From Ridgeia piscesae (Eukaryota; Annelida; Polychaeta; Sabellida; Siboglinidae), in the NCBI GenBank assembly GCA_025642075.2, contig JAODUO010000434.1, positions 71,001 through 135,000 of the forward strand: a stretch of 64,000 nt of DNA, written 5' to 3'. Positions 7-60,639 of the stretch are shown here, in pieces (positions within the stretch are counted from its first letter, which is position 1; every line of letters begins with the position of its first letter). The notes below the pieces were generated by a model. That model was not told the origin of the DNA, searched no databases, and was given only the letters and a program-made list of their open reading frames with translations. A program made the translations under genes and the position numbers.

Positions 7-20751
<20,745 letters not shown>

Positions 20752-23082: not shown

Positions 23083-23180
23083 TTTACACTTGCACACCGC
23101 TTTTTCACATTAATTACCAACACAAAATCATATGATTCATTGCAGACTGAACAACACACTGATACCCACAAATAACCATC

Positions 23181-31366
<8,186 letters not shown>

Positions 31367-33044: not shown

Positions 33045-33935
33045 TCTGACTTAATTGTTAAAATGTTGGATTAAACTATTTTGAAATGAGTTTAGTGATT
33101 TACGTGAGACAGTGTTTGGGGTGGGAGAGAATTCCATTCTTTAATTGTTGTTGGGAAGAAGCTGTTTCCAAATATGTTTGCAGAGTATCTAATTTGCAAG
33201 AACTGACTGTCATGTTTACGTGAGGATCTAGTGTTGTGTTGGATATAGTGATCTAGCGGGATATCTATAAGGTTATGTTCCATTTTGTATATTATGCTAA
33301 GTCTTTTAATTTTTCTTCTTGTTTGGAGGGTGTCCCACTGTAGGTCTTTAAAAAGTTGGGTTACTGTTCCTGGTTCTCTAGAATAGTTTTGTGTACAAAA
33401 TCTGGCTGCTTGTCTTTGGATTCTTTCTAAGGTTTTAATATGTTTTAGGCAGTGTGGATCCCATGATGCTGATGCATATTCAAGTATTGGTCGGACAAGG
33501 GTTGTGTAGGCTATTGACTTAATGTGGGTTGGGCATTTATTTAGATTTCTCCTAATGACTCCTAGAGTCTGCTGTGCTTTCCTAGCGACTGAGTTGCATT
33601 GTGCTGTCCGATTTAATGTATTTGATATTTGTACACCAAGATAACAATGTGATTGAACAGATTTAAGTTGTTGGCCACAGAAGGTGTAAATATTTGGTGT
33701 CAGTTTTCTTGAGGCTAATGTCATTGTGAAGCATTTGGTAGGATTTAATTTCATAAGCCAGGTGTTTTGCCATTCCTCAAGTTTGATTATATCATTTTGG
33801 AGGAGAGAAATGTCATTGTCTGATTTAATTGGTTGATATAGTAGGCAGTCATCTGCAAAAAGGCGAACGTTTGAAGTGAGATTGTTGGGTAGGTCATTTA
33901 TGTAAAGTAAGAAAAGTAGGGGCCCCAGTACGGGC
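33045..33935 (-). mobile_element. 5'-truncated non-LTR retrotransposon, reverse transcriptase C-terminal part
   Basis: A continuous minus-strand frame (33092-33973) has VLGPLLFLLYINDLP, the catalytic box LFADDCLLY, NPTKCFTMTLAS, YLGVQISNTLN and LVRPILEYASASWDPH, and ends SFFPTTIKEWNSLPPQTLS. This is the palm/thumb and tail of a LINE reverse transcriptase. The expected QGS before VLGPLL is missing and upstream domains are absent, so it is a dead 5'-truncated copy although still open for nearly 300 codons. Family (CR1/jockey-like or other) not determined. Confidence 0.9.
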
Positions 33936-34560
33936 ACATGCAAATATTTTGCCAAACATGTTGCAAGTGCCACAGATTTTTAATATCGCTATACTTTGCA
34001 AACATTTCTTCATAAATTGGAAGAATCGGCATGTTTGATTGATGTGTTCGACTCGCAGCGACGCAGGCTGTCCGGTATACGACATGTTACTGGTATGCTG
34101 GCTTATACTTATACGAGCGCACGTGATATCGACGGAGACGACGAAAGTCAAGTGTGGCGACACCGTATGTTGATATTGCTAACATGAATGCATACTTTTT
34201 ACCTGGTAATCATTTTAAAGCTTATAATTTTATGTCAACGATGTATCAATTCTTCAATATGCATTAAAAAATATTTATTGACTGTAAAAGGTGAATATGC
34301 TACCTGAATTTTTACGAACCTTGTTGATATCAGTCATAAAGGGCAAAATAATTATCCGGAAAGGTACGTACCAGCTGAAAAGGGGTTATAACACTATTTT
34401 TACTTACTCATCACACACGTAATATATCAAGACTCCGCGAGGTGTCACCACTGGCGACAAAACGGGGCGCCCGAATGGCCACGAATATTAAGTGATTGGA
34501 CGGCCGATATGCGAGTTAATGCGAAAATTGTAGATGATAATAATGTGTCTTTTAAAGCAC
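33936..34560. other. Spacer, nothing recognised
   Basis: Between the LINE and the microsatellites I see no gene or known repeat; open frames are under 90 codons. Confidence 0.5.
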
Positions 34561-34748: not shown

Positions 34749-35689
34749 AAAATGGCGCACGTTCCGGATGACGTAATACACATCCTAGATGACGCTGCGG
34801 TCGCTTCGTAGTCCCGGACTAGACTGCTTCCTGAAACTATGTTACTCTTAGCGTGGAGACATTCAACTAGCCATGGAAAATAGTACCAATATTATTGTAA
34901 TTTAATTTTACCCTCATTGTTTGCAATTGTACCATTCAGTGCTAGAAAATATTTCTTCCTACTGATCCCCAATCACGTGACTGCGAAGGAATTACGTCAC
35001 AAACAGCGCTCGTGAACGGCAGAGCCGGCGAAGACAAACTTTCAAGCTAATCGTTCGCCATCGAGACGGAGAATCAAGCCATACACGGAGAACATTTACA
35101 AGAAGTTACATGAACATCTAACAGATAAGTTCAAGCTATATTACCATTAACTATTTACTTAACTTTTCTATCAAATTATCTTCGGCGTTCTCCCTGGAAC
35201 AGTGGGTAGGGCACTGACGTCAAACGCAGCCGATTAACAAGAGAGTTAACTCTGGAGAACATTTCCAATAAATTACACGACAAAATATACAATACCATAT
35301 AACCTTAGCATTAATAATTTCAAAAAAGATTGTTTGCTTAGCCTTGAGTTGACGTTCCATTTGGAATAGTAGACGGGATACAGACGATGACTGGTAACTG
35401 TAAGGACGTAAGAAAAGAAGGAAGGAAAGAAGGAATGAAGAAAAAAGGAACGCGATTAAGCCTAAGGACAAATTAATCAATATGCCTATAGCAGCATTAA
35501 GTAATTCACTTAAAGCGGTAGTGCTAGCGTCAGGACACGCCTCATCCAGACCAAATTACGGGCTTCGATTGAGAGCAGGGATGGTCTGGGGCAATACGTC
35601 ATAATTTATATCCATCCATCCGTCAATCCATTAGTCATGTAGTCACTCATTCAATCAGTTCTAACTAACTCACTCATTCACACACGCAC

Positions 35690-35708
35690 GCACGCACGTA
35701 CGCACGTA

Positions 35709-35740
<32 letters not shown>

Positions 35741-36820
35741 CACAGTCAGCCACACAGCCAGACAGACAGACAACCAGTCTCGTATCTTCAACTGCACTCT
35801 GTGTCTTCTACGGCACACCGCTTCCTCCGTCCTTCCGCCTGTTCGCCTGTCCACCCACCGTTCCGCCCTCCCTCCTTCCCTCCGCCTGCCAGTCTATCCG
35901 TCTATCCGTTCATCACCCCGGTAGTCAGTCAGTCAGTCAGTCAGTCAGTCAGTCAGTCAGTCAGTCAGTCAGTCAGTCAGTCAGTCAGTCAGTCAGTCAG
36001 TCAGTCAGTCAGTCAGTCAGTCAGTCAGTCAGCCAACCAGCCAGTCAGTCAGTCAGTCACGCAGTCAGTCACGCAGTCAGTCACGCAGTCAGTCACGCAG
36101 TCAGTCACGCAGTCAGTCACGCAGTCAGTCAGTCCTTACTCATCTACTAACTAATTAACTCCTTCAGCCAACAGCCAGTCGTCCGTCCGTCCGTCACTCA
36201 CTCCCTCACTCCCTCCGTCCTTCCGTTTGACCGTACGTACGTCGGTCCGTCCATCCACACGTGGATGGGGTGGCGTGGTTGGGTGGATGGTGTGTGAGCG
36301 GTGGTTGGGTAGACAGTGGGCGTCTTCAACGACATTCCGTGTATTCAACTGCACACCGCTTCCTCTGCCCATCCGCCTGTTCGCCCGTCCACCCGCCCGT
36401 CCGCCCTCCTCCACCCCGCCCCCCTCCTGTCATTCCGTTCATCACTAAATCAGTCAGTCAGTCAGTCAATCAATCAGTCAGTCAGATAGTCAGTCAGTCA
36501 GCCAGCCAGCCAGTCTCGCAGTCAGTCACGCAGTCAGTCAGTCCTTATTCATCTACTAACTAATTAACTCACTCAGCCAACAGCCAGTCGTCCGTCCGTC
36601 CGTCCGTCACTCACTCCCTCACTCCCTCCGTCCCTCCGTCCCTCCGTCCCTCCGTCCCTCCGTCCCTCCGTCCCTCCGTCCCTCCGTCCCCCGTCCCTCC
36701 GTTTGACCGTACGTACGTCGGTCCGTCCATCCACTCGTGGATGGGGTGGCGTGGGTGGATGGTGCTTGAGCGGTGGTTGGGTGGATAGTGGACGTCTTCA
36801 ACGACACTCCGGGTGTTCAA
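35690..36820 (+). repeat. CAGT/GTCC/CACG tetranucleotide higher-order repeat, copy 1
   Basis: A ~400-bp module (CACG or CAGT array, then CTACTAACTAATTAACTC, GTCC/CCGT units, GTTTGACCGTACGTACGTCGG, ATCCAC-GTGGATGGGG, CTTCCTC...CGCCTGTTCGCC) appears about three times. CAGT runs occupy 35928-36030 and shorter stretches up to 36540. Long frames here are repeat artefacts. Confidence 0.85.
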
Positions 36821-37295: not shown

Positions 37296-38707
37296 GTGTC
37301 TTGTACGTATATTAATTTTGTGTACATTGGTGATTTTACACTTTATTTAAATATAGGAGTACAGTAAAAAGAAGTATGTAACTTTGTATATTTGTAAGTT
37401 GATTCAAGGCATCAACGAAGAAGACGAAGACGACGTAAATGAAGACCAAGGAAGCATTGTGTTCATGGAAAAGAGGATATGTAGGCCGAGATTAGCAGTA
37501 GTTAGGAAACGGTTCCGGCGGACAGGCGAGAAGAAGACGCCGAGTGGGCGAAATAAATGTATAATGACAGGGTCAATACGACTATAAACTAATACAATCT
37601 TCGTGTACAATGGGTTGACGCCGGGGAACCACAAACCATAGAGTGACCGATTTTCGTTTCCTGATTCACACACTCCGCAGCATATTTGGTGTCCCCTTGT
37701 TAAGAACGTCATCGTGTATGGTTGCAGTTAATGATTAAACACTGGCGTGTTTTCAGAACGACATCATACGAGGCATGACGAGGGTAGAGGGGGGCTCATG
37801 ATCACCACACCCGCTGGAAGACAGACCCAGTCGTGTAGAGGTGTCTGTACAGAAGCCTTGCTGCGAGAACGGCGCCTCTGGTGGATACGTGGGACACTGA
37901 AATGTTGCTCTTTGACATGACACACACAACAACGTGCCGCTAATAAGTCTGAATGGTAGCGACTTGGTACAAATATAATAGTACTGAAATGTGAAGGCAG
38001 TAACGACATGGGAGATTGTCAAAATGACACAGCCCTGAACTCTCACTTCCCTTCTGTTGTTTGATACTTTGATCACAATCTCAAGTTATTTCGTACTGTT
38101 GTTCACGGAGATTTTATTTGTTGAGACACATTAATGAAATGATTAAATATACGACACATGATTGGCGTCATACTGGGGCTGTTCTGAAGACCTTTATACT
38201 TCCTGTCTGCGCAGAACAACGGTATTAGTTGTATGACCAGGAAGCTGTTAAGAGACCTTCTTTGTTATTACCATTTCAGCCGGAATACGTTTTACACAGT
38301 TATTTCACATTGTAAGGTAGCCAGTTCATTTACTTAAAATGTTTCCAGGAATCACCTCAATTGCACGAATTGCCTGTTTTAAATAGCTACCTTTCAGTTG
38401 GTCCTTACTGTGTGTATATGTATGCCATCTGGTGATGTTGTATAAACATGTACGAACACCACAATGTGGCCGTTTCTGTTTAATATTAAAAGACACACTG
38501 GGATGACATGTTCTTCTGCAAGGTTGTTCCATCGGCTTACAATCATTAATTACATTTATTATAATTTTCACAACGCTTTTCCTTTCGTTCTGACAAGTTA
38601 TCGACACAATCCCGAACGCAGTCACCGACTGGTCGCTATTTGAAAATGCATTCTGCTACACTGGTGGAATATCGCTGATAGCAACTCTACCAGTGTGGTG
38701 CATGTCT

Positions 38708-39061
38708 CTAGAAGATGCGGCAACTGCCTGTCGTAATTTGCCGCCGCCATAGCCTCCGGCATGGCATCTTCAGACAGACTTTGCGGAACTGGATGACGTT
38801 GATGACGTCAAGGACGTAATGGCCGACAATGAGCGGCAAGAGTTTCCACCAGTTCTCCCGGTATTTTAACGGCGTGTCAGTCTGGGTGACGAGAACGCTG
38901 AAGAAGATGACGGAGACGAGATTGGAGAGGACAAGGAAAATCATGTACAGGCCTTGGTTGTCGGCGGTGATACAGCGATGAAGGATGTAAGAGTGGTTCA
39001 CCATCTTGTAGTAACAATGTCCGCACTTGAAGCAATGCCGGGCACCGTGCGGCTGCACGAT
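38708..39061 (-). CDS. DHHC-like last exon, copy 1
   Basis: The acceptor (minus strand GTGTTTAG) precedes ATCGTGCAGCCGCACGG. The exon encodes 117 residues holding the second half of the cysteine-rich domain and two transmembrane helices. Copy 2 keeps an identical protein from ILHRC to the stop with a synonymous GTC/GTT change, which argues for recent duplication or allelism. An AATAAA on the minus strand (38555-38560) lies about 150 bases past the stop. Confidence 0.75.
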   Translation of the reverse strand: MVQPHGARHCFKCGHCYYKMVNHSYILHRCITADNQGLYMIFLVLSNLVSVIFFSVLVTQTDTPLKYRENWWKLLPLIVGHYVLDVINVIQFRKVCLKMPCRRLWRRQITTGSCRIF

Positions 39062-42000
39062 CTAAACACACGCACACATATAGTCGCATTAGCGTATATC
39101 CATCGCCTCATTCGCCTGTATCTATTATTTCCGAGCAACCTAGTTAGGATATTCCGAACACTATAACGCGTCTCACCTCACATATCGCACAAACACGATA
39201 ATACATCACCTACACGTTGCACAGACACACTAAGACATCGCCTACACGTAGCACATACACGATAAAACATCACCTACGCGTAGCATAGGCACGTTAAAAC
39301 ATCACCTACATGTCGCACAAACATGATAAATAATCACCAACACTTAGCACTGACACGATAACACTAACCTACACGTAGCACAGACACGATAGCATTAATC
39401 TACACGTAGCACTGACACGATAACACTAACCTACACGTAGCACTGACACGATAACACAAACATACACGTAGCACGGACACGATAACACTAACCTACACGT
39501 AGCACTGACACGATAACACTAACCTACACGTAGCACAGACACGATAACACTAACCTACTCGTAGCACTGGCACGATAACACTAACCTACACGTAGCACAT
39601 ACATGATAACACAAACCTACACGTAGCACAGACAGGATAACACAAACCTACATGTAGCACAAACACGATAACACTAACCTACACGTAGCACATACATGAT
39701 AACACAAACCTACACGTAGCACAGACACGATAACACAAACCTACATGTAGCACAAACACGATAACACTAACCTACACGTAGCACAGACACGATAACACTA
39801 ACCTACACGTAGCACTGACACGATAACACTAACCTACACGTAGCACATACATGATAACACAAACCTACATGTAGCACAAACACGATAACACTAACCTACA
39901 CGTAGCACTGGCACGATAACACTAACCTACACGTAGCACTGACACGATAACACTAACCTACACATGGCACAGACACGATAACACTAACCTACACGTAGCA
40001 CAGACACGATAACACTAAACTACACGTAGCACTGACACGATAACACAACCTACTCGTAGCACAGGCAGGATAAATCATCACCTACACGTAGCACTGATAC
40101 GATAACACTAACCTACACGTAGCACAGACACGATAACACTAACCTACACGTAGCACTGACACGATAACACAAACCTACTCGTAGCACTGATACGATAGCA
40201 CTAACCTACACGTAGCACAAACACGATAACACTAACCTACACGTAGCACTGATACGATAACACTAACCTACACGTAGCAAAAACACGATAACACTAACCT
40301 ACATGTAGCACTGATATGATAACACAAACCTACTCGTAGCACTGATACGATAACACAAACCTACACGTAGCACTGATACGATAACACAAACCTACACGTA
40401 GCACAGACACGATAACACTAACCTACACGTAGCACTGACACGATAACACTAATCTACACGTAGCACTGACGTGACAACACAAACCTACTCGTAGCACAGA
40501 CCCCATAACACTAACCTACACGTAGCACAGACACGATAACACTAACCTACACGTAGCACTGATACGATAACGCTAACCTACACGTAGCACAGACACGATA
40601 ACACTAACCTACACATAGCACTGATACGATAACACTAACCTACACGTAGCACATACACGATAACACTAACTTAAACGTAGCACAGACACGATAACACTAA
40701 CCTACACGTAGCACTGACATGACAACACAAACATACACGTAGCACAAACACGATAACACTAACCTACACGTAGCACTGACATGACAACACAAACCTAAAC
40801 GTAGCACTCACATGATAACACAAACCTACACGTAGCACAAACACGATAACACTAATCTACACGTAGAACTGACACGATAACACAAACCTACACGTAGCAC
40901 AAACATGATAACACTAACCTACACGTAGCACTGACACGATAACACTACCCCCTACACGTAGCACTGACGTGACAACACAAACCTACTCGTAGCACAGACC
41001 CCATAACACTAACCTACACGTAGCACAGACACACATAACACTAACCTACACGTAGCACAGACACACATAACACTAACCTACACGTAGCACTGATACGATA
41101 ACGCTAACCTACACGTAGCACAGACACGATAACACTAACCTACACGTAGCACTGATACGATAACACTAACCTACACGTAGCACAGACACGATAACACTAA
41201 CTTAAACGTAGCACAGACACGATAACACTAACCTACACGTAGCACTGACATGATAACACAAACCTACACGTAGCACAGACATGATAACACTAACCTACAC
41301 GTAGCACAGACACGATAACACATTACCTACACGTAGCACAGGCATGATAAATCATTACCTACACGTAGCACTGATACGATAACACTAATCTACACGTAGC
41401 ACTGACACGATAACACAAACCTACATGTAGCACAGACACGATAACACTAACCTACACTTAGCACTGATACGATAACACTAATCTACACGTAGCACTGACA
41501 CGATAACACATTACCTACAGGTAGCACTGACACGATAAATTATCACTTGCTGGAAACACAGACACGAGAAAACATGACATGATATGAAAGTTTATTTAGA
41601 ATATTGTTAACAACAATAAAACACAATTCAAACAGGCACATTTTACTACAATACTACAATGTTTCAGAGGGTTAAATTTGAAGTCAATGACTTTTGTGTC
41701 AATTTACCCCTGACACATATTTAAATAATGTTTACAAATTCATTTTCAAAGTATAACATAAGTAAACATATTTACGCATAATATAGTTAAGAGGGATGGT
41801 CCACAACCAAAACATCACAGAGAATTCTACACTTACACCCCCTTTACACAAAGAGACATTGATCGCATAGTAGAACAGATTGGCTCGCATTGAATAAGCT
41901 ATTCCCGTCTTGTAAACAAACGCTGAATATTTGATGGCAAATAACTGTAGTACGCTCTCATAAAAGATAACGTTTATGATATCTGTACATTTTAGTACAT

Positions 42001-45000
42001 GTCGTTGGAAAAATGAGTGTGTGATCCAATCGTCTTGCACCAAATACAATTCAGATTTTCCTTTTCTGCAGTAAAAAGATTTTGTTAGTATTTGTTGGTT
42101 GTTTCCCAACATCTCCACACAGAAATTTAAATAAGGCAAAAAGACAGTTTTTGTATAAAATTCATTTACTATTTCTACCAAGTAGATGACTGCATCTATG
42201 CATTATAGCAGTACTTTTTGAAAGCTTTGATTGTGCATATTGTATATGAGCTTTCCAATTTAGAAGTTCATCAATAAACAACTCAAAAACTTTGTGACCC
42301 TTAGTCTTTCGATATTAACATTTTGCAGTTTTATACTGATTTCTTTGTTCAGCATACGACTTCCGAATAGCATATAATTGGTTTTAGTTACGTTCACAGT
42401 TAATTTATTTACTGCAAGCCATACGTATAATTTTTCCAATACATAACATATTGTTTCATTTACTCTACTGATATTACTATTTGCATGAAAAATATTAGTA
42501 TCTGCAAAGAGGATGAATTTACTAGATGAGATATGTTACACAAATCATTAATATATAGAATAAATAAACATCATCTACAGGAAGCACGGACACGATAAAC
42601 ATCAACACACGTGGCAGACACGATACCATCTACGATAATAGTATCGACATGATAACAGATCACATACCCGTAGCACATACACGATAACACGTCACCTACA
42701 TGTCGCACAGACACGATAATAGGCCTACATCTCACCTCGCATGTCCCACAGAAGCGTCGCTTTTCGGCTAACGGACCGTCCAAGTCTTTTATCGAAGCCG
42801 CGTCTTTTCCCACCATTGTTGAAATCGTACACGCACCTGGAGGTCGAACGAAAACATGTCACACAGTGTAATGGGGTTCCACAAATCCACGTTAGTCGCT
42901 AGAGGCGCCAATACGCAACTAGACCCTAGTTGCTTATCAGCGCCTCTAGCGACTAGCGGGATTTGATTGTATGTTTTGCTGAAAGCTTGTTTAAATCATC
43001 CTCAATTAGCCATTGACCGTGCAGGGCTAGCCAGCGATAGCTTGTATGTGGGTAACTGGGCATGCCGTATGTGTGGTCAATAGACAGAACAGCATACCGT
43101 ATGTGTGGTCAATAGAACGAACAGCCAAAACACCGCCATCTTGGCACTGAATTCAATCGAACGTCCCGCGACGTTTCATCGACTGTAACTGTACATTAAT
43201 GTAGACTTTATGCTTTCATACTGACGGACATGTTATACGATATCAATATTTAACTATGTGTGAAGACGTAGCAGTCTCGTGTGATGCATACGGCGAGCTG
43301 TAGATGGTTTTAAACATCCTTTCCGGCATCGAGCCAGCACACCTTTCGTCGGGCCACCAGTCGACGTTCCATCGGCTGTAAATGTACATTAATGTACATA
43401 GTATACTTTCACATTGACGGACATGTCAGACGGTATCCATATTTAGCTATGTGTAAGGCTTCGGAGTCATGCGAGTTCAACAGCTGATTGTAGGATGATT
43501 TAAACAAGCATTCCGCAAAATCTTCCGCAAAACGGTGTCGCATTTTACACACGCTCAAAGACCCCAGTTGCCTCAGGGCGCCCTCTGTCGGATTAGTTAT
43601 TGCGGTACCTCATTGTTGACATTTCAGGAATTAGCTCTATCGTGTTCGTACAACTGATTACGATTTGTAGTTATACGTACGCTATAACTCCTCCACATAA
43701 AGCAAACCACGTGTCGACCGTTAACTTGCCCAACTACCCTGACCCTGTCTTCTTCCGGGCCTTCCCGGGTTCACGAACTTTTCAAATCGGCATTATCTAG
43801 TCTAGTCTGCGCTAGGTCAATGCAGTATGCACTGAGGAATGGCCATTTTATTAACGTTACATAAACCGAAATCGTCCATCTTTTCAACACAATTTCCAGT
43901 TGATCAGCATACCGCATACAATTGTAAAGAAATTCCCGACACACAATGACCTTGGTTTCACATAATATGCAGGCATGCAATTTTTTTATTATTTCAATGG
44001 CCGGATCTGGCGGACCGGTAACTTAGATAAAAATATGTTTTTAATAATATAGTGCCCAACAATGCCAATGCGGCATGCACTGTGTATAGTAGCAAGTGCG
44101 GTAAGTTAGACATCCGTTTATTTTGCAGTTGCACATATATTTCCTTAGCAACAGTTAAAAAGGTAGTTTAACTTAGAATGCGAAAAGTCAATTTAAAGGG
44201 CAAAAAAAGACAACGGTTTCGTATCATACACTTAATAGAGTTTATACAAACTAACAATTTCCACGTATACTAAATTTTTTAACGTCAGCGGTTTACTCAG
44301 AATGTGACCTTAAAGTCTAAAAATCTAACGAAATCCATGATGGCCTAGACACCACCATCTTAATCGGTGACGTATTCGTTTGACTTTGCCTGGCCTATAA
44401 GCGCGCGGCATTCTAGGTCTCTGCTGAGGCCGGTCAGCTTCCTGCGACGTCACTACGGCACACAACAACTTCGAGTCTTCGTTTAGTTGGCGATATAGCA
44501 GCTGCTTAGACGTAAATCTGTGGCCAACAAGTAATTATGAAGTAGACATATATTACCAGTTGATGGAACAAGATCCAACAAAACGTCGCCGACCGTCGTC
44601 TTCTTAAACCCGGGGCAGTGCTGACAATATTTAGCCATGGATGGACCTAAACTTCTAAAGGCTAAACGTCGAAGCAACGCATATATCAAGCTGGCCGAGA
44701 CATCAATGATCAGATCGCAAGAAGGTTAGTATAATGTACTATTTTTTCTGTGGTATAACGTTTGTATTTAATTGTGTTTTTTACAGACGTCAAGCACATG
44801 TAACGTTTTTATGGTGTTAAAAGTAGTTTTGACCTCCGTAGACCGGCTATCGATTGACGATGCCGATGGCTCGAGCATCGATGTGTTGACGATGCCCGAT
44901 GCCGATGTCCCTCGATGACAGCTAATCTGTTTTTACGGTATCACGTCCACATGTGTAAAGACTAAGATATACTTGAACCAAGCTAGGACAAAAGCACAAT

Positions 45001-48000
45001 TTATATCATCGCAGAATTTAGTACAATGCAGAATAAATAATGTTGCCTTTAGAAGAAACTTGAATAACTGAACTTGAACATGACACGTCTCATGGGTGAT
45101 AATATGTCATCGGCGGAGGGACCGTGGCCTTGGATTGTCGTTGGCACTTCTTCTTAAATTCAGTAAGTTAACTAACCGCTCATAGTGACATAGACATTTT
45201 TTCCCATCGATGTGAATGTAGGCTATGTCAGAGTAAGGTGACATTGATCAATACAGCTAGTAAAGCTTATGATCAATGTGTTCAGATATGTGCTAAGAAA
45301 TAATGAAAATGTTATGATGCTGAAAACTAGAAATTCAGTCAGTATTTATTTAAACATTAAGTTTTTACAAAGTTTTGTTAGTTGCATTTTTCTGTTAGTT
45401 TCCAATTATGAGATTCACATCTGATTATATTTATCATAATTTTATCAAGTTTCTGCATGCACTTTGACACCCCACTTTCAAAATTAGTTTCACCTTCGAG
45501 TAGCAGTATTTATGACTGTTTAATGGCTGGTGGAATTCAATGATTGTTTGAAATCCATGGACAGTTGCTGCATGCATGTTTCAAACTAAATCTTCATTTA
45601 AACTACTCATTTTATCTGCAACAAGTTGTGTTTATTTTGATGTTTTATTAGCTTTTTAGATGTGACGTCGGTATCCACTGGTTAAAGATCTATTGTCACC
45701 TGTAAGTGATAATTGAAAAAGATATGTTTTATTTTAGATAATTATAGAGTGAAAATTCATACACTTGATTGATATTGTCTGCTGCATTCTCACAATATGG
45801 CTGTTTCTCACTTTCTGGTAATCTCATATGAATAACCAGAGGAAATGCCAATTAGGTGATGATGCAATGAATTATTTCACGTTCCTTTGTTGTTGGTTAC
45901 AGAAAACAATGATTGTCACTCCTGTATCACATTGTGGCATCCATACGCATGTGCATACGCTGCAATTGCATGTGCATACGACAATGTATCTGGAGCAAAG
46001 TTCAGCAGCATTCAATGCCCTGCCTGAAGTCAGTCATCACAGCACGGCACTTTCTGGGAGCCATTCCCTAGCTCACTAAATTCTGTCATACTGGACAGGT
46101 GGAGGTATATCAGAGTTACCTGCCCCAAGAGACAGCACTTCTATGAAGGTATGACAGCAGTCGTAACTACAAGGGGACTTTTGCGACAAGGGGACTTTTG
46201 CGATAAGTTGCATTTGAATCCTTGCTTGTACAGTTCTCTTCACATTGCACCAAGCTGTATAAAGTAGCACATAGTAATTGCAGTATTGCTTCACATTTCT
46301 AAGATAATACAGGTATGGCATTTGAATGAACTCCTAGTAACTGTGTCATGGGGGACAAAACACAGCTGTAAACAGTTACTGTGTACATTTATGAATACAG
46401 CTACTTGTGTAATTAATAACTTCTCTGTTTTTGATAAAATAAAATAAATAACAAGTCATTATCACTGAATGTATTAAAATATAATATAAAAATACATAAA
46501 AATACAGTCACTGTATATACATGATACAAAGTGAAACATTAAGATTAGAACAACAAGTGATAATTGGGAGTGGAATGTGATAGTGGAATTCCTGGTCAAT
46601 GTGTTGTTATTTAACTTATGGTTACCAATTTGGCTAATGTTTGGTTACTAAAACAATGACTTCTTGCATGATTATCAAATGAAATTACAAACAAATTAGT
46701 ACATGTTTATAACCATGTAGAAAAACGTTTCAAAGTTGTCTAATTACTAATCAGTTAATGCAAGCACTATATTCATTGTAGGAATGAAATCACGATTGAT
46801 GTTATCTGCTCTTGCGGGGAACTATCGGCCACGTCCTGTCCCAGGCATCCCTGTTAACACAGATGTCATCTTCGAGAAACAATGATTAAACTGGAGGTTG
46901 CGCAACAGAACACAAGTCCGACATAACCGTCTCTACCCATGCTGATGAGCCACATAATGCATGTGGTGATGGGAAAAGTTACACTGCCACTAATCACTGT
47001 ACCAACAGGGGTTGCTTGATCGGGGCAAATGTGCCAAAACCGAGTAAGGAAGATCTGCGGACTGCATGGCTCAATCGTTTTGTACACTAGTCAAGTCTTC
47101 GAGAGCAAAGTGATATCCCTCGTGCTGCTCTCCAAGCGAGGACAGGGAACTTTGTCCTGATTAGGTGGCTGGTGCATGCTGGCAGTACTCGATGAACACT
47201 CCGGCCCAACTTGTTGTGAACCCACCAGTAGACTGCCTATAGACAGCCCACCTGAGCAACCTGAAATAAACGTGTTCAGATAAATATACATATGACATTG
47301 TAAATAAGATGAAAATTAATCAATGATCCTTTTAATTTAAAATATATCATTAAAGACAAACCCCATTTCAAACATGTGGTGCTTTTTAAGAAATAAAATA
47401 AATATGTGGCAGTATTAGAGCATATTGCATCAAATGTTGACAATATGCACTTTTAAATCGCTGTGTGGCATTAGAAACCATTGAGGATCTATTTCTATAA
47501 TTTGGAATAAAATGAATTAGGGTATTGCTAGTAAGCTCAAGAAATGTTTATTAATTTGATTGAACCATTCTGAAAGCTGTCAAACATAAACATCTTGTCT
47601 AAAACCTCTAATGACAACTCCAGTCCCTGCATTCACATATTTGGGTTGTCATATTCACATCTCATAATGGATAACCAGAGGAAATGTCAATTAGATTATA
47701 ATTGTGAAAAGACTAGGCACTATAATTTACTCTATGATCCATTCTATACTTTGGGCAGTAGTAGGAACTATGCACTATGTTCACAAATTTACCTGCCATT
47801 TTCACTACATAGAAATCATAATGGTTCCATGTGTTGTATCTATATGTAATGATAACTGTTATTTTTTATTTATAGTGTTACTTTGTTTGATGTTGTATTG
47901 TTGCTTCTTATTTGATGCATTAACGTTTATTGCAACATAATTATATACAATGTATGCACATTATACTTACTTGTTTGTTGATGGATCTAGTTGCCAGTTA

Positions 48001-49996
48001 TCTATCTGTATATGGTTCAGTGCAACCAATACATTCCGAAGCACCAGTTGCTCGAAGCAGAGAATTTCAAATCCGACTTTTCGTAATACACAGCAGTCCA
48101 CCTGTAATACAAAATCGAACATTAAGAAATGTTTTATGTGAATCATTGCAAACATGGATTATTATTCTGAATGAACATAATTTCACAAAGCATGAATTCT
48201 GACACATTTCCTTTATTCATCTCGTCACTACTATCTCTGGGTTCTTTGAAACAAACTCATTATCTATGTTTATATATGACTCCATAAGATGAGAAGATAA
48301 CCCTGCAGTTTATGTTCAAATAAAATAATCGTAACTGCCTGCCATTGCTGTGTAGGCTGTGCATTTAGATCATGATATATGAATCAATATAGCTGCTGTT
48401 ATTACAAATGTGATGAGTGTCCACACCTGGGGGATGCAAAAAAACAGCAAGGTATTGACTATTCATTTGTATGGATTCTTTCCACAATTGATACACCTGC
48501 ACAATTGTGGGACCTGATTCATTTAATTTCATTGGAACTATTCCTTACAATTTATGTTAAATGATAAACCCCACCAAGTCTTAACAAATGTGTTATTATC
48601 ATAAAACGTAATAAGTGACACATACTTAGTCTAATAGTTGAATGCGGCAAGCCTGAGCCTGAGGTCACTGAGGTGACCCGGCTGGCCCAAGCTAAGCGAT
48701 CATATTTCGCTTGTCATAATAATACGATCATTACGCAGTCCGGACCTCAGGATAATAATATTTAAGCAATAACAATAATAGACAACTTAATATTTACCTT
48801 CATCAATATGCTCCGCGCGTTGCCGAGTTGCAGCCATTTCATGACAGCAGACAAACTTGTCACCGCATCAACAAATTGGTTCGAGTTGACACCGTTTCTG
48901 CTAGTTTTGTTTGTGTACGTTCAGCTTCCCGTGTGTCTTTCTTTTCGTGGTCACTCGCGTCTAGTGAATATCTTCCAATACGTGCCTTTGTCTTTGCGGC
49001 TGGAATCTATATCCAGATACTTCTGCATCCGTTAAATGATCCGATTTAGATCATGCATAACAAACACGCCATTTTTTTTTCTCTGCGCACAGCGCCTCCA
49101 GACGGATTTATGAATAACTAATCTGTGGAGAAGCCTAAGCTTACTGACGTCATTCTTCGTCGACAATGGTGTAGCTCATAGTATTTCGATGGCTGGGTGT
49201 TCAAAAATATTTTTCAGGTAAACGGCTGGCGTTAAAAGATTGAGTATATGTGGAAATTGTTACTTTATATTAACTCTATTAGGTGTACGCCACGAAACCG
49301 TTGCCTTTTTTGCCCTTTAACGATATAGTGCAGGCCTCCTGGAAGTACGTGAAAGTTTGACTTATTAAAGTATAAGAAGAGCTAATATTCAAAGGAAATC
49401 AAGACATTAGCTAAACTCCACCAACAAACCTTATGCTATAAATAACTCATAGTTCCACCATTACAACCACAGGAGCGGCAAATGTACTACAGAGAACGGT
49501 GACGTCACATCTCGGAATCTCGAAAGCGCGGAAAAAATATGCATTTTCAAAAAATGCGACTTACTTAATAAAATGTGGCATTTCTAATTTATTAAACTTT
49601 TATGATTTATTTGGCTTAGTGCACATGGAAATATATAGCAGGATGTAATATCAAACGAATTATAAGAAAAAGTGTTTTTATTTTAAGTAAAGATATAGAG
49701 GAACCTCAGTATTAATGTCGGCCTCGAGACAGGAACCCACTGACGGAATCTGCGCAACTTTGCGTCATTTTTGCCGCGTTTCGAGTTTCGGATCGGGCCA
49801 AATAAATGGCGTAAGCATTTAAATAAGTACCATCTCTACAGTATCGGGTTTAACTGCAGGGCCAAGCAAGAGGATTACATTACAGCGGCATCAAACTTTC
49901 TTGGCTCTATGCGGAGAAGTGCGTAGTAGACACTACTGTACAGCGACATCATCACGACGATGACGAACGAGACGAACGGGTGCTTCTTGAATACAC
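38708..49996 (-). CDS. DHHC-family membrane protein with degenerate catalytic motif, copy 1 (partial)
   Basis: Three minus-strand exons were recognised: 49884-49996 (37 codons, hydrophobic FVIVVMMSLYSSVYYALL), 42736-42836 (zinc-finger start KRRFCGTCE) and 38708-39061 (ARHCFKCGHCYYKMVNHSY, then LHRCITADN, membrane segments MIFLVLSNLVSVIFFSVLV and LLPLIVGHYVLDVINVI, stop TAG at 38708-38710). This is the C-x2-C...HC-x2-C-x2-C cysteine-rich domain of protein S-acyltransferases, but the DHHC tetrad reads NHSY, so the acyl-accepting cysteine is absent. Exons 2 and 3 join in phase 0. Exon 1 ends in phase 0 while exon 2 needs phase 1, so at least one exon is unseen. The N-terminus was not found. Likely a non-catalytic paralogue or a decayed gene. 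Confidence 0.65.
39172..41545. repeat. 31-bp minisatellite inside the DHHC-like intron, copy 1
   Basis: Unit (plus strand) CACGATAACACTAACCTACA plus CGTAGCACTGA, about 75 units with variants (ACAGACACG, ACATACATG). On the gene's strand related units begin a few bases after the exon 2 donor (42735 downward, GTGAGATGTAGGCC, then GACATGTAGGTGACGTG). The far end near 39172-39183 repeats a donor-like GAG-GTGAGAC. The array therefore grew from sequence next to the 5' splice site. Confidence 0.93.
41600..42562 (-). mobile_element. Decayed non-LTR reverse transcriptase fragment, copy 1
   Basis: On the minus strand, frames shifted against each other give FILYINDLCNIS, KFILFADTNIF (one D of FADD lost), VTKTNYMLFGSRMLNKEI, FLPYLNFCVEMLGN and IPLNYIMRKYVYLCYTLK. 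This is the palm and thumb of a LINE protein. Frameshifts and stops make it a pseudogene. It interrupts the 31-bp array, which resumes at 42563. A different family from the LINE at 33045. Confidence 0.75.
42736..42836 (-). CDS. DHHC-like zinc-finger exon, copy 1
   Basis: 101 bp: two bases plus 33 codons, acceptor GACCTCCAG, donor GAG-GTGAGA. It encodes SIKDLDGPLAEKRRFCGTCE. Together with the next exon it gives the spacing F-C-x2-C-x(10)-H-C of DHHC proteins. The same exon is intact in copy 2 (62872-62972). Confidence 0.7.
42893..42960. repeat. Long hairpin near the DHHC-like exon
   Basis: AGTCGCTAGAGGCGC and GCGCCTCTAGCGACT are perfect arms, with an inner pair GCAACTAG/CTAGTTGC. In copy 2 the right arm is gone and AACTAACGTGGATTT follows directly, pairing with the outer AAATCCACGTTAGTT. 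Together they suggest a palindromic element in two states of decay. Confidence 0.75.
43163..43470 (+). repeat. ~200-bp direct tandem duplication, present only in copy 1
   Basis: 43163-43265 (ACGTTTCATCGACTGTAACT, then ACATTAATGTAGACTTTATG) matches 43366-43468 (ACGTTCCATCGGCTGTAAAT, then ACATTAATGTACATAGTAT) with scattered changes. Confidence 0.75.
44637..46884 (+). CDS. Possible small plus-strand gene inside the TTAA element
   Basis: A start at 44637 opens MDGPKLLKAKRRSNAYIKLA and ends at a donor after 44724 (GAAG then GTTAGT, phase 1). Candidate downstream exons are 46099-46148 (phase-compatible, GGISELPAPRDSTS) and 46782-46884 (MKSRLMLSALAGNYRPR, stop TGA near 46882). Exon 1 joined directly to the last gives about 62 residues. 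No similarity recognised. Splicing is guessed from consensus only. Confidence 0.25.
47071..48101 (-). pseudogene. P2X7 C-terminal (ballast)-domain-like gene fragment
   Basis: Exon 47971-48101 (acceptor TTGTATTACAG, donor AACAA-GTAAGTA) encodes VDCCVLRKVGFEILCFEQLV then LRNVLVALNHIQIDNWQLD. The next exon, 47071-47260, continues LLRWAVYRQ, then in a shifted frame YWWVHNKLGRSVHRVLPACT and LIRTKFP, then in a third frame SLGEQHEGYHFALEDLTS and a stop. The order CC...L-VL...STN-LR-A-YR...LP-C...IR-KFP...GQ--G-F is that of the cytosolic ballast domain of P2X7 receptors and of standalone invertebrate relatives. Two frameshifts make this copy broken. A candidate first exon is 48798-48837 (MAATRQRAEHIDEG, donor GTAAAT), but the phase does not join, so a middle exon with the CxC zinc ligands is missing or unseen. 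Confidence 0.7.
49884..49996 (-). CDS. DHHC-like transmembrane exon, copy 1
   Basis: 113 bp on the minus strand between acceptor GTGTGCAG and donor GCT-GTAATG. It encodes VFKKHPFVSFVIVVMMSLYS and SVYYALLRIEPRKFDAA, a membrane helix with basic flanks. The copy 2 exon (63557-63669) differs by one residue (R to S) with several silent changes, which supports a coding role. Confidence 0.6.
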
Positions 49997-53370: not shown

Positions 53371-54726
53371 CTCCTGGAACCTTGGACTGGTTGTCATGTT
53401 TATTTGATGAAATATATATTTCTATGCGGACAAGAACTGTTCTATTCATCATCATTATCACCATCGTCGTCGTCATCATCATCCCTGTGCAGCCGTAGTG
53501 TCCAGTGGTTGGAAAAAGGCCTCAGCATGCTGCTTCCAGATCTGCCGTTCCGGATGACGTAATACACATCCTAGATGACGCTGCGGTCGCTTCGTATTCC
53601 CGGACTAGACTGCTTCCTGAAACTATGTTACTTTTAGCGTGGAGACATTCAACTAGCCATGGAAAATAGAACCAATATTGTTTAAATTTAATTTTGCCCT
53701 CATTGTTTGCAATTGTACCATTCAGTGCTAGAAAATATTTCTTCCTACTGATCCCCAATCACGTGACTGCGAAGGAATTACGTCACAAACAGCGCTCGTG
53801 AACGGCAGAGCCGGCGAAAACAAACTTTCAAGCTAATCGTTCGCCATCGAGACGGAGAATCAAGCCATACACGGAGAACATTTACAAGAAGTTACACGAA
53901 CATCTAACAGATAAGTTCAAGCTATATTACCATTAACTATTTACTTAACTTTTCTATCAAATTATCTTCGGCGTTCTCCCTGGAACAGTGGGTAGGGAAC
54001 TGACGTCAAACGAAGCCGATTAACAAGAGAGTTAACTCTGGAGAACATTTCCAATAAATTACACGACAAAATATACAATACCATATAACCTTAGCATTAA
54101 TAATTTCAAAAAAGATTGTTTGCTTAGTCTTGAGTTGACGTTCCATTTGGAATAGTAGGCGGGATACAGACGATGACTGATAACTGTAAGGACGTAAGCA
54201 AAGAAGGAAGGAAGGTGGGAAGAAAAGAAGGAAGGAAGAAAAACGGAACCCGATTAAGCCTAAGGACCAATTAATCAATATGCCTATAGCAGCATTAAGT
54301 AATTCACTTAAAGCGGTAGTGCTAGCGTCAGGACACGCCTCATCCAGACCAAATTACGTTTATAGGGCTTCGATTGAGAGCAGGGATGGTCTGGGGCAAT
54401 ACGTCATCATTTCTATCCATCCGTCCGTCAATCCATCAGTCATGCAGTCACTCATTCAATCAGTTCTAACTAACTCACTCATTCACACACGCACGCACGC
54501 ACGCACGCACACACGCACGCACGCACGCACGCACGCACGCACACAGTCAGCCACACAGCCAGCCAGACAGACAGACAACCAGTCTCGCATCTTCAACTGC
54601 ACTCCGTGTCTTCAACGACACACCGCTTCCTCCGCCCTTCCGCCTGTTCGCCTGTCCACCCACCGTTCCGCCCTCCCTCCTTCCCTCCGCCTGCCAGTCT
54701 ATCCGTCTATCCGTTCATCACCCCGG

Positions 54727-55300
54727 TAGTCAGTCAGTCAGTCAGTCAGTCAGTCAGTCAGTCAGTCAGTCAGTCAGTCAGTCAGTCAGTCAGTCAGTCA
54801 GTCAGTCAGTCAGTCAGTCAGTCAGTCAGTCAGTCAGTCAGTCAGTCAGTCAGTCAGTCAGTCAGTCGTCAGTCAGTCGAGTCGTCGTCAGTCGGTCAGT
54901 CAGTCAGTCAGTCAGTCGTCGTCGTCAGTCGTCGTCAGTCGTCAGTCAGTCAGTCAGTCAGTCAGTCAGTCAGTCAGTCAGTCAGTCAGTCAGTCAGTCA
55001 GTCAGTCAGTCAGTCAGTCAGTCAGTCAGTCAGTCAGTCAGTCAGTCAGTCAGTCAGTCAGTCAGTCAGTCAGTCAGTCAGTCAGTCAGTCAGTCAGTCA
55101 GTCAGTCAGTCAGTCAGTCAGTCAGTCAGTCAGTCAGTCAGTCAGTCAGTCAGTCAGTCAGTCAGTCAGTCAGTCAGTCAGTCAGTCAGTCAGTCAGTCA
55201 GTCAGTCAGTCAGTCAGTCAGTCACGCAGTCACGCAGTCAGTCACGCAGTCAGTCACGCAGTCAGTCACGCAGTCAGTCACGCAGTCAGTCACGCAGTCA
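54727..55300 (+). repeat. CAGT array 1, copy 2
   Basis: About 125 CAGT units with irregular GTCGTC slips at 54866-54945, ending in CACGCAGTCAGT units. The copy 1 counterpart (35928-36135) is about a third as long. Confidence 0.93.
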
Positions 55301-59421: not shown

Positions 59422-60346
59422 TTGAATCCTACATACGTCCCCAGCAAGTTAACCTTTCCGCTGGAATCACTACACAGACCGGTTTAAAATTGAATTTATA
59501 CTACAAATGACACTGACACTGGTATCGTTGTAAAACTGAAATGTTGCTCTTTGACATGACACACACAACAACGAGCCGCTAATAAGTCTGAATGGTAGCG
59601 ACTTGGTACAAATATAATAGTACTGAAATGTGAAGGCAGTAACGACACCGGAGATTGTCAAAATGACACAGCCCTGAACTCTCACTTCCCTTCTGTTGTT
59701 TGATACTTTGATCATAATCTCAAGTTATTTCGTGCAGTTGTTCATGGAGATTTTATTTGTTGAGACACATTTCTGAAATGAAGAAATATACGACACATGA
59801 TTGGCGTCATACTGGGGCAGTTCTGAAGAACTTTATACTTCCTGTCTGCGCAGAAAGACGGTTTTGGTTGTATGACCAGGGGGATATTAAGAGACCTTCT
59901 TTGTTATTACCATTTCAGCCAGGATACATTTCATACAGTTATTTCACATTGTACGGTAGCCAATTCATTTACTTAAAATGTTTGCATGAATCGCCTCAAT
60001 TGCACGAATTGCCTGTTTTAAATAGCTACCTTTCAGTTGGTCCTTACTGTGTGTATATGTATGCCATCTAGTGATGTTGTATAAACATTTACGAACACCA
60101 CAATGTGGCCGTTTCTTTTTATATTTAATGTCAGCACTGGGATGACATGTTCCTCTGCAAAGTTGTTCCATCGGCTTACAATCATTAATTACATTTATTT
60201 TAATTTTCACAACGCTTTTCCTTTCGTTCTGACAAGTTATCGACACAATCCCGAACGCAGGCACCGACTGATCGCTATTTGAAAATGCATTTTGCTACAC
60301 TGGTGGAATATCGCTGATAGCAACTCTACCAGTGTGGTGCATGTCT

Positions 60347-60627
60347 CTAGAAGATGCGGCAACTGCCTGTCGTAATTTGCCGCCGCCATAGCCTCCGGCA
60401 TGGCATCTTCAGACAGACTTTGCGGAACTGGATGACGTTGATGACGTCAAGGACGTAATGGCCGACAATGAGCGGCAAGAGTTTCCACCAGTTCTCCCGG
60501 TATTTTAACGGCGTGTCAGTCTGGGTGACGAGAACGCTGAAGAAGATAACGGAGACGAGATTGGAGAGGACAAGGAAAATCATGTACAGGCCTTGGTTGT
60601 CGGCGGTGATACAGCGATGAAGGATGA
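60347..60627 (-). pseudogene. DHHC-like last exon, copy 2, 5' truncated
   Basis: Matches 38708-38985 of copy 1 nearly base for base: both membrane helices and stop (60347-60349), and upstream as far as ILHRCITADN. At 60627 it runs into the 31-bp array, so the HC-x2-C-x2-C and NHSY part and the acceptor are gone. The copy 2 gene cannot make the cysteine-rich domain. Confidence 0.8.
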
Positions 60628-60639
60628 AAGATCACAAAA

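Follow-up and report, generated by a model that had tools for sequence, protein, structure and literature searches.

The element at positions 44193-49320 of the window, by which we mean the whole stretch of 64,000 nucleotides of Ridgeia piscesae DNA analysed here, is a copy of a young, multi-copy transposon family with a size of 5.1 kb, and we hold with high confidence that it derives from a Kolobok DNA transposon of the Kol0 type and is itself decayed and non-autonomous. This assignment relies on its AG...CT ends, on the C-terminal relic of a transposase and on its relatives in the genome, no catalytic core having been recognised in the element.

Kojima & Bao 2022 (PMC9587614) describe Kol0 elements as consisting of a transposase gene and a second gene, KolX, report that KolX is similar to residues 476-595 of P2X7 (the ballast), and derive P2X7 from a P2X4-like gene to which KolX became fused. 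The proposal made in a first-pass annotation of this DNA, that a transposon offers a vehicle for the spread of this domain and for the origin of the P2X7 tail, is thus right in kind and was already published. Rump et al. 2020 (PMC7016195) report ballast domains across animals, and neither "transpos-" nor Kolobok appears in the text of that paper; PMC9319628 mentions P2X7 and Kolobok, each once, and among the PMC papers searched PMC9587614 is the one that treats KolX together with Kolobok, or the ballast domain together with P2X7 and a transposon. As the central idea was in print before, the value added here is modest: what is new is the description of one family, a derivative probably mobilised in trans, in a vestimentiferan tubeworm.

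Ends of the element and remains of two genes

The features of the element are as follows (TIR, terminal inverted repeat).

44193-44196: TTAA target-site duplication, left (from the sequence)
44197-44296, plus strand: left TIR, starts AGGGCAAAAAA; 86.5% identical to the right end over 104 bp including TTAA
45916-46159, plus strand: Kolobok transposase relic, C-terminal half, reading ...CLKSVITARHFLGAIP, stop, LTKFCHTGQVEVYQS... / PKRQHF; tblastn E 1.1e-7, a stop and a frame break
47025-47087, plus strand: relic of the transposase C-terminal tail, ANVPKPSKEDLRTAWLNRFVH, then a stop; a tblastn match to P0138 (52% over 21 aa, E 0.12) that is weak by itself
47090-47260 (lower limit approximate), minus strand: relic of the last KolX exon with two frame breaks (LLRWAVYRQ..WWVHNKLGRSVHRVLPACTSHLIRTKFP..GEQHEGY); KolX profile E 5.6e-5, exon open in the C3273 relative
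47971-48101, minus strand: relic of the middle KolX exon (CCVLRKVGFEILCFEQLVLRNVLVALNHIQIDNWQLDPSTNK) with one frame break and a GTAAGT splice donor; KolX profile, spacing the same in 21 of 21 copies
48798-48885 (limits approximate), minus strand: KolX zinc-cysteine exon relic (C, in-frame stop, CGDKFVCCHEMAATRQRAEHIDE); KolX profile 8.3 bits
49218-49316, minus strand: right TIR; self-comparison, and a homologous right end with TTAA in the C3273 relative
49317-49320: TTAA target-site duplication, right (from the sequence)

The TTAA on both sides and the inverted termini of about 110 bp that had been noticed at first are both borne out. The two termini start with the same bases and, aligned in inverted orientation by self-blastn, are 86.5% identical over 104 bp, a second alignment giving 84% over 101 nt, and the outermost bases in the window sequence are AG...CT, that is, of the form 5'-RR...YY-3'. 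Apart from the inverted termini, the sole self-match of the element is a 44-bp internal direct repeat (self-blastn, E 1e-3).

A stretch at 10461-10530 (TTAAGGGAAACAAAAGACTACG...) is 69% similar to the element terminus over 71 bp (E 0.006); a partner end was not seen within the window, and the stretch is possibly the lone end of a related element. Two pairs of segments flank the element (34760-36134 with 53546-54947 and 37896-38992 with 59535-60631, 94% and 96% identical among the matches listed), and these we read as a local duplication. Long tandem-like self-similar arrays lie at 39173-41575 and 23655-25132, with about 86-88% identity between shifted copies among the matches listed. At 23163-23663 (plus strand) Pfam matches a RING domain and, weakly, a B-box, as in TRIM proteins; an ORF of 295 aa at 33092-33979 (minus strand) resembles the terminal part of a non-LTR reverse transcriptase, and the exons at 8400-12260 resemble those of the U5 snRNP helicase SNRNP200/BRR2. 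An Rfam scan of the window gave nothing at the gathering threshold.

On its minus strand the element keeps the remains of three exons that encoded the C-terminal domain of P2X7 ("ballast", P2RX7_C). The P2X7-like residues quoted in the first-pass annotation do lie on this strand and in the order given, but they are spread over exons and frames: between STNK and LLRWAVYRQ there is about 0.7 kb with consensus splice sites, and the YRQ and GEQHEGY pieces do not share the frame of VLPACTSHLIRTKFP. The middle exon has an open stretch of about 44 codons. A KolX/P2RX7_C profile was built from 120 proteins listed among the 274 found with a search probe, and it was run against 2616 stop-to-stop ORFs of at least 15 residues from all six frames of the whole window. 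This search gave its best, and significant, hit within the element, at 47090-47236 (minus strand, E 5.6e-5, 20.0 bits, profile positions 140-167), followed by 48790-48867 (minus strand, E 0.21, 8.3 bits, positions 61-78) and 47970-48158 (minus strand, E 0.4, 7.4 bits, positions 86-107). The window's top three hits are thus all within the element and on its minus strand, the first being the only one significant alone.

It could be argued that the resemblance to P2X7 arose by chance, with frames chosen by eye, since the Pfam score hangs on the joining of the pieces (26.1 bits for P2RX7_C, E 9.4e-6 and cut-off 23.5, in a hand-joined read-through spanning one intron and two frame breaks, and 16.3 bits, below the cut-off, in an earlier exon joining) and just one of the three unjoined hits reaches significance by itself. 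We consider this extremely unlikely, because the unjoined six-frame scan places the three hits in the correct gene order and because 500 second-order Markov resamplings of the element never reached either 20 bits (maximum 12.0) or, summed over three hits of one strand, 35.7 (maximum 18.9), 8.3 bits being reached by 13 of them. Moreover, the C3273 relative (L065) reads the same peptides: its KolX, on the minus strand, is split into three exons, has a single frame break and keeps each of the seven zinc-cysteine positions, and with the break masked it scores 61.4 bits with P2RX7_C. The remnant of the ballast domain is real. The family-majority reading of KolX keeps six of the seven zinc-cysteine positions and is 62% identical to KolX of C3273.

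Pfam gave no P2RX7_C match with single unjoined KolX pieces, and none with 10 of 16 homologous short proteins. In phmmer searches of PDB nothing relevant was found with KolX pieces, and of the five hits obtained with the better joining four were P2X7 (best E 0.023). From the 120 listed proteins 47 KolX proteins were chosen by hand, and a profile built from them matched four distinct PDB sequences at E < 0.001, all of them P2X7 (E 1.5e-13 to 1e-11) and over residues 466-595. With P0002 as the query, no relatives turned up in viral_contigs or genome_contigs.

On the plus strand only a C-terminal relic is left of a Kolobok-type transposase, separated from the left TIR by about 1.7 kb (44300-45916). 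Thirteen of the 14 Kolobok-type transposases found via the C1918 transposase end (P0150 was left out) were compared by tblastn with the element alone, and they matched 45916-46159 with best E values of 1.1e-7 (P0143) and 3.4e-7 (P0138); in a scan of the whole window with a transposase profile, the unjoined pieces of 45916-46159 are the top two hits (E 0.0035 and 0.065). The counterpart of this region in C3273 is open and scores 120 bits, and a tail like the one at 47025-47087 is present there as well. In Pfam, the six frames of 44297-49221 contain no family, and no DDD/E catalytic core was recognised in them. A point against the Kolobok reading is that a 44-base stretch of the relic (about 46042-46085) is matched, with up to six edits allowed, in only eight of 21 copies, which indicates that the transposase relic is variable or partly missing among copies.

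Copies of the element and lesions common to the family

The genome-wide search with the termini, proposed at the outset, revealed a multi-copy family. For the left 128 bp, 40 places were scored among 1048 first-look candidates: apart from the window's element (100%), there are 39 with 97-98% identity. For the KolX region 40 were likewise scored among 448 candidates, and the 39 outside the window have 93-97% identity. These numbers are lower bounds, as scoring covers the best candidates only: very similar copies amount to dozens as scored and probably to hundreds in total. Twenty copies were fetched from the 39 KolX-region places, several near contig ends being passed over, and 13 of them have TTAA and the element termini at both ends, 4.2-5.2 kb apart. 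As to the other seven, the right TTAA is altered in L039, L043 has a run of N, L030 meets a contig end, the left end is missing in L032, L033 and L045, and both ends are missing in L046. The 28 flanks of the 13 copies and of the window's element (up to 200 bp each) show no mutual match at E 1e-5, which means that the copies are separate insertions. Over 4.9 kb, twelve copies including the window's are pairwise 96.7-99.6% identical (mean 97.9%). The left-end loci compared (n=8, one being the window's) all run on into the element, and a large internal deletion is found in L003.

These copies bear on the idea that the ballast domain belongs to a nanor-like host gene whose presence at this site is an accident, the transposon being unrelated to it. 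The occurrence of the domain elsewhere in the genome away from these termini, which the first-pass annotation had taken as a sign of such an accident, is indeed observed, with 19 P2RX7_C matches over the Pfam cut-off (two of which, L060 and L061, overlap). However, the family carries the domain in 40 of 40 scored places (in a search whose query was the domain region itself), the 39 places beyond the window share the region at the identities given above, and the 13 complete copies hold it between TIRs and TTAA in unrelated flanks, so that an accidental neighbour has next to no probability in our estimation.

The domain, as part of the element, is broken in the same way throughout the family. 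The last exon of KolX has two breaks and its middle exon has one, and the spacings at these breaks are the same in all 21 copies (20 fetched and the window's). The stretch of the zinc-cysteine exon that holds the stop was located in 20 copies, 19 of which have the stop, and was not located in one more. Further small KolX changes occur in single copies (L041, L035, L046). The splice sites of the middle exon, as read by eye in the aligned rows, are kept in 21/21 (donor) and 20/21 (acceptor AG). KolX is a pseudogene common to the family and was broken already in its founder, and the lesions common to the copies indicate that the family spread after the death of KolX. This suggests that an intact KolX in cis was not required for that spread.

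Relatives in the genome and the Kolobok assignment

Among the 19 KolX loci, the C3273 relative is the only one with a DNA match to the element at E 1e-4: five collinear blocks are 68.5-74.6% identical, and the right end (TIR) is the same, with TTAA. It also has a transposase piece on the plus strand, opposite to KolX and near the contig end. More generally, a piece of Kolobok transposase (E < 0.001) lies within about 1.5 kb at nine of the 19 loci (L049, L052, L053, L055, L056, L059, L062, L065 and L067, the last of which gave the query that retrieved the transposases), and at each of the nine, transposase and KolX lie convergently on opposite strands. At the other ten no transposase piece was found at E 0.001 within about 1.5 kb; weak hits (E 0.1-0.5) were obtained at L050, L051 and L063. 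A second KolX group is formed by L049-L052, L054-L056, L059 and L063, which share DNA blocks of 66-94% similarity; several of these loci have transposase remains close by.

The element on contig C1918 (L067), of 3.57 kb, reads TTAA|AGGAACATGCAACC ... GGTTGCATGTTCCT|TTAA with AG...CT ends, and it has a 22-bp inverted match of which 14 bp are inside the element. It combines KolX with a transposase C-terminus and with a THAP-like N-terminus that is near-identical in reading to that of P0137, the middle of the transposase being apparently missing. P0137, a Ridgeia piscesae protein with a THAP domain, is 96% identical to the C1918 transposase piece over 88% of the query, in keeping with a vestimentiferan tubeworm as host. 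L062 (C269) is 99.4% identical to L067 over 1.86 kb and has the same right end at TTAA.

Since the domain and Kolobok transposase remains are found together at several distinct loci, these data support KolX as a Kolobok gene, and from the arrangement of the relatives it is most likely that the Kol0 lineage has KolX as its regular second gene and did not capture it. A single genome thus provides independent support for the P2X7 tail domain being a regular Kolobok gene. The first reading had left open a Kolobok or a piggyBac type, and a domain either captured or normally carried; a TTAA-specific DNA transposon of the Kolobok kind is upheld by its ends and its transposase relic, the domain is most likely an ordinary KolX gene (from the paired loci, C3273 and C1918), and the evidence speaks against piggyBac and capture. 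Indeed, the alternative that a piggyBac-type transposon captured a host ballast-domain gene as cargo accounts for the TTAA sites, which are common to piggyBac, but is very unlikely on several grounds. The AG...CT ends fit the 5'-RR...YY-3' rule that, in a passage of PMC9587614, separates Kolobok from piggyBac termini; the transposase relic within the element is of Kolobok type; of the seven zinc-cysteine positions, six are readable in the KolX relic (family-majority reading), and most of the seven are lacking in the piggyBac proteins treated in PMC9587614; and KolX and transposase are paired alike at other loci. In the six frames of 44297-49221 Pfam finds no piggyBac transposase domain, in a scan that a decayed relic could escape.

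Proposed history and comparison with known systems

To judge from its relatives, the Kol0-type Kolobok ancestor of the family would have been autonomous, with TIRs of about 100 bp and two convergent genes: a Kolobok-type transposase and, on the opposite strand, KolX, a zinc protein resembling the P2X7 tail. By the time of the family's founder the transposase had been reduced to C-terminal scraps and KolX had its frame breaks and stop, while the TIRs, having been kept, could be recognised by a transposase made elsewhere in the genome. This transposase, supplied in trans and most likely that of an autonomous Kolobok, would have cut and pasted the element into TTAA sites, duplicating TTAA. The termini, the TTAA, the copies in unrelated flanks, the relics of both genes and the common KolX lesions on which this history draws are direct observations. 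Copies in host introns could in principle be spliced into host genes, replaying a fusion of the P2X7-tail type, a prospect that we regard as quite unlikely.

With piggyBac the element has the TTAA target duplication in common, and it differs in its end bases and in having no transposase domain detected by Pfam. KolobokP belongs to the same superfamily and has TTAA and RR...YY ends as well; unlike it, the element is without long terminal direct repeats (none of about 450 or 660 bp in self-blastn at E 1e-3) and without any Pfam family in its six frames. With the P2X7 ballast domain (PF20478, P2RX7_C) and the nanor-like ZCD proteins (PMC7016195), it shares the same domain and the cysteine pattern WCxCGxC / CC / CIT / PSC seen in KolX; here, however, the domain is broken and inside a transposon, and no P2X channel domain joined to it was found by Pfam in the six frames. 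Kol0 Kolobok (Kolobok-1_XT type, PMC9587614) differs in that both genes are relics in the present element, whose family is multi-copy, apparently non-autonomous and hosted by a siboglinid annelid, and it is alike in TTAA, in RR...YY ends, in KolX and in the remains of a Kolobok-type transposase.
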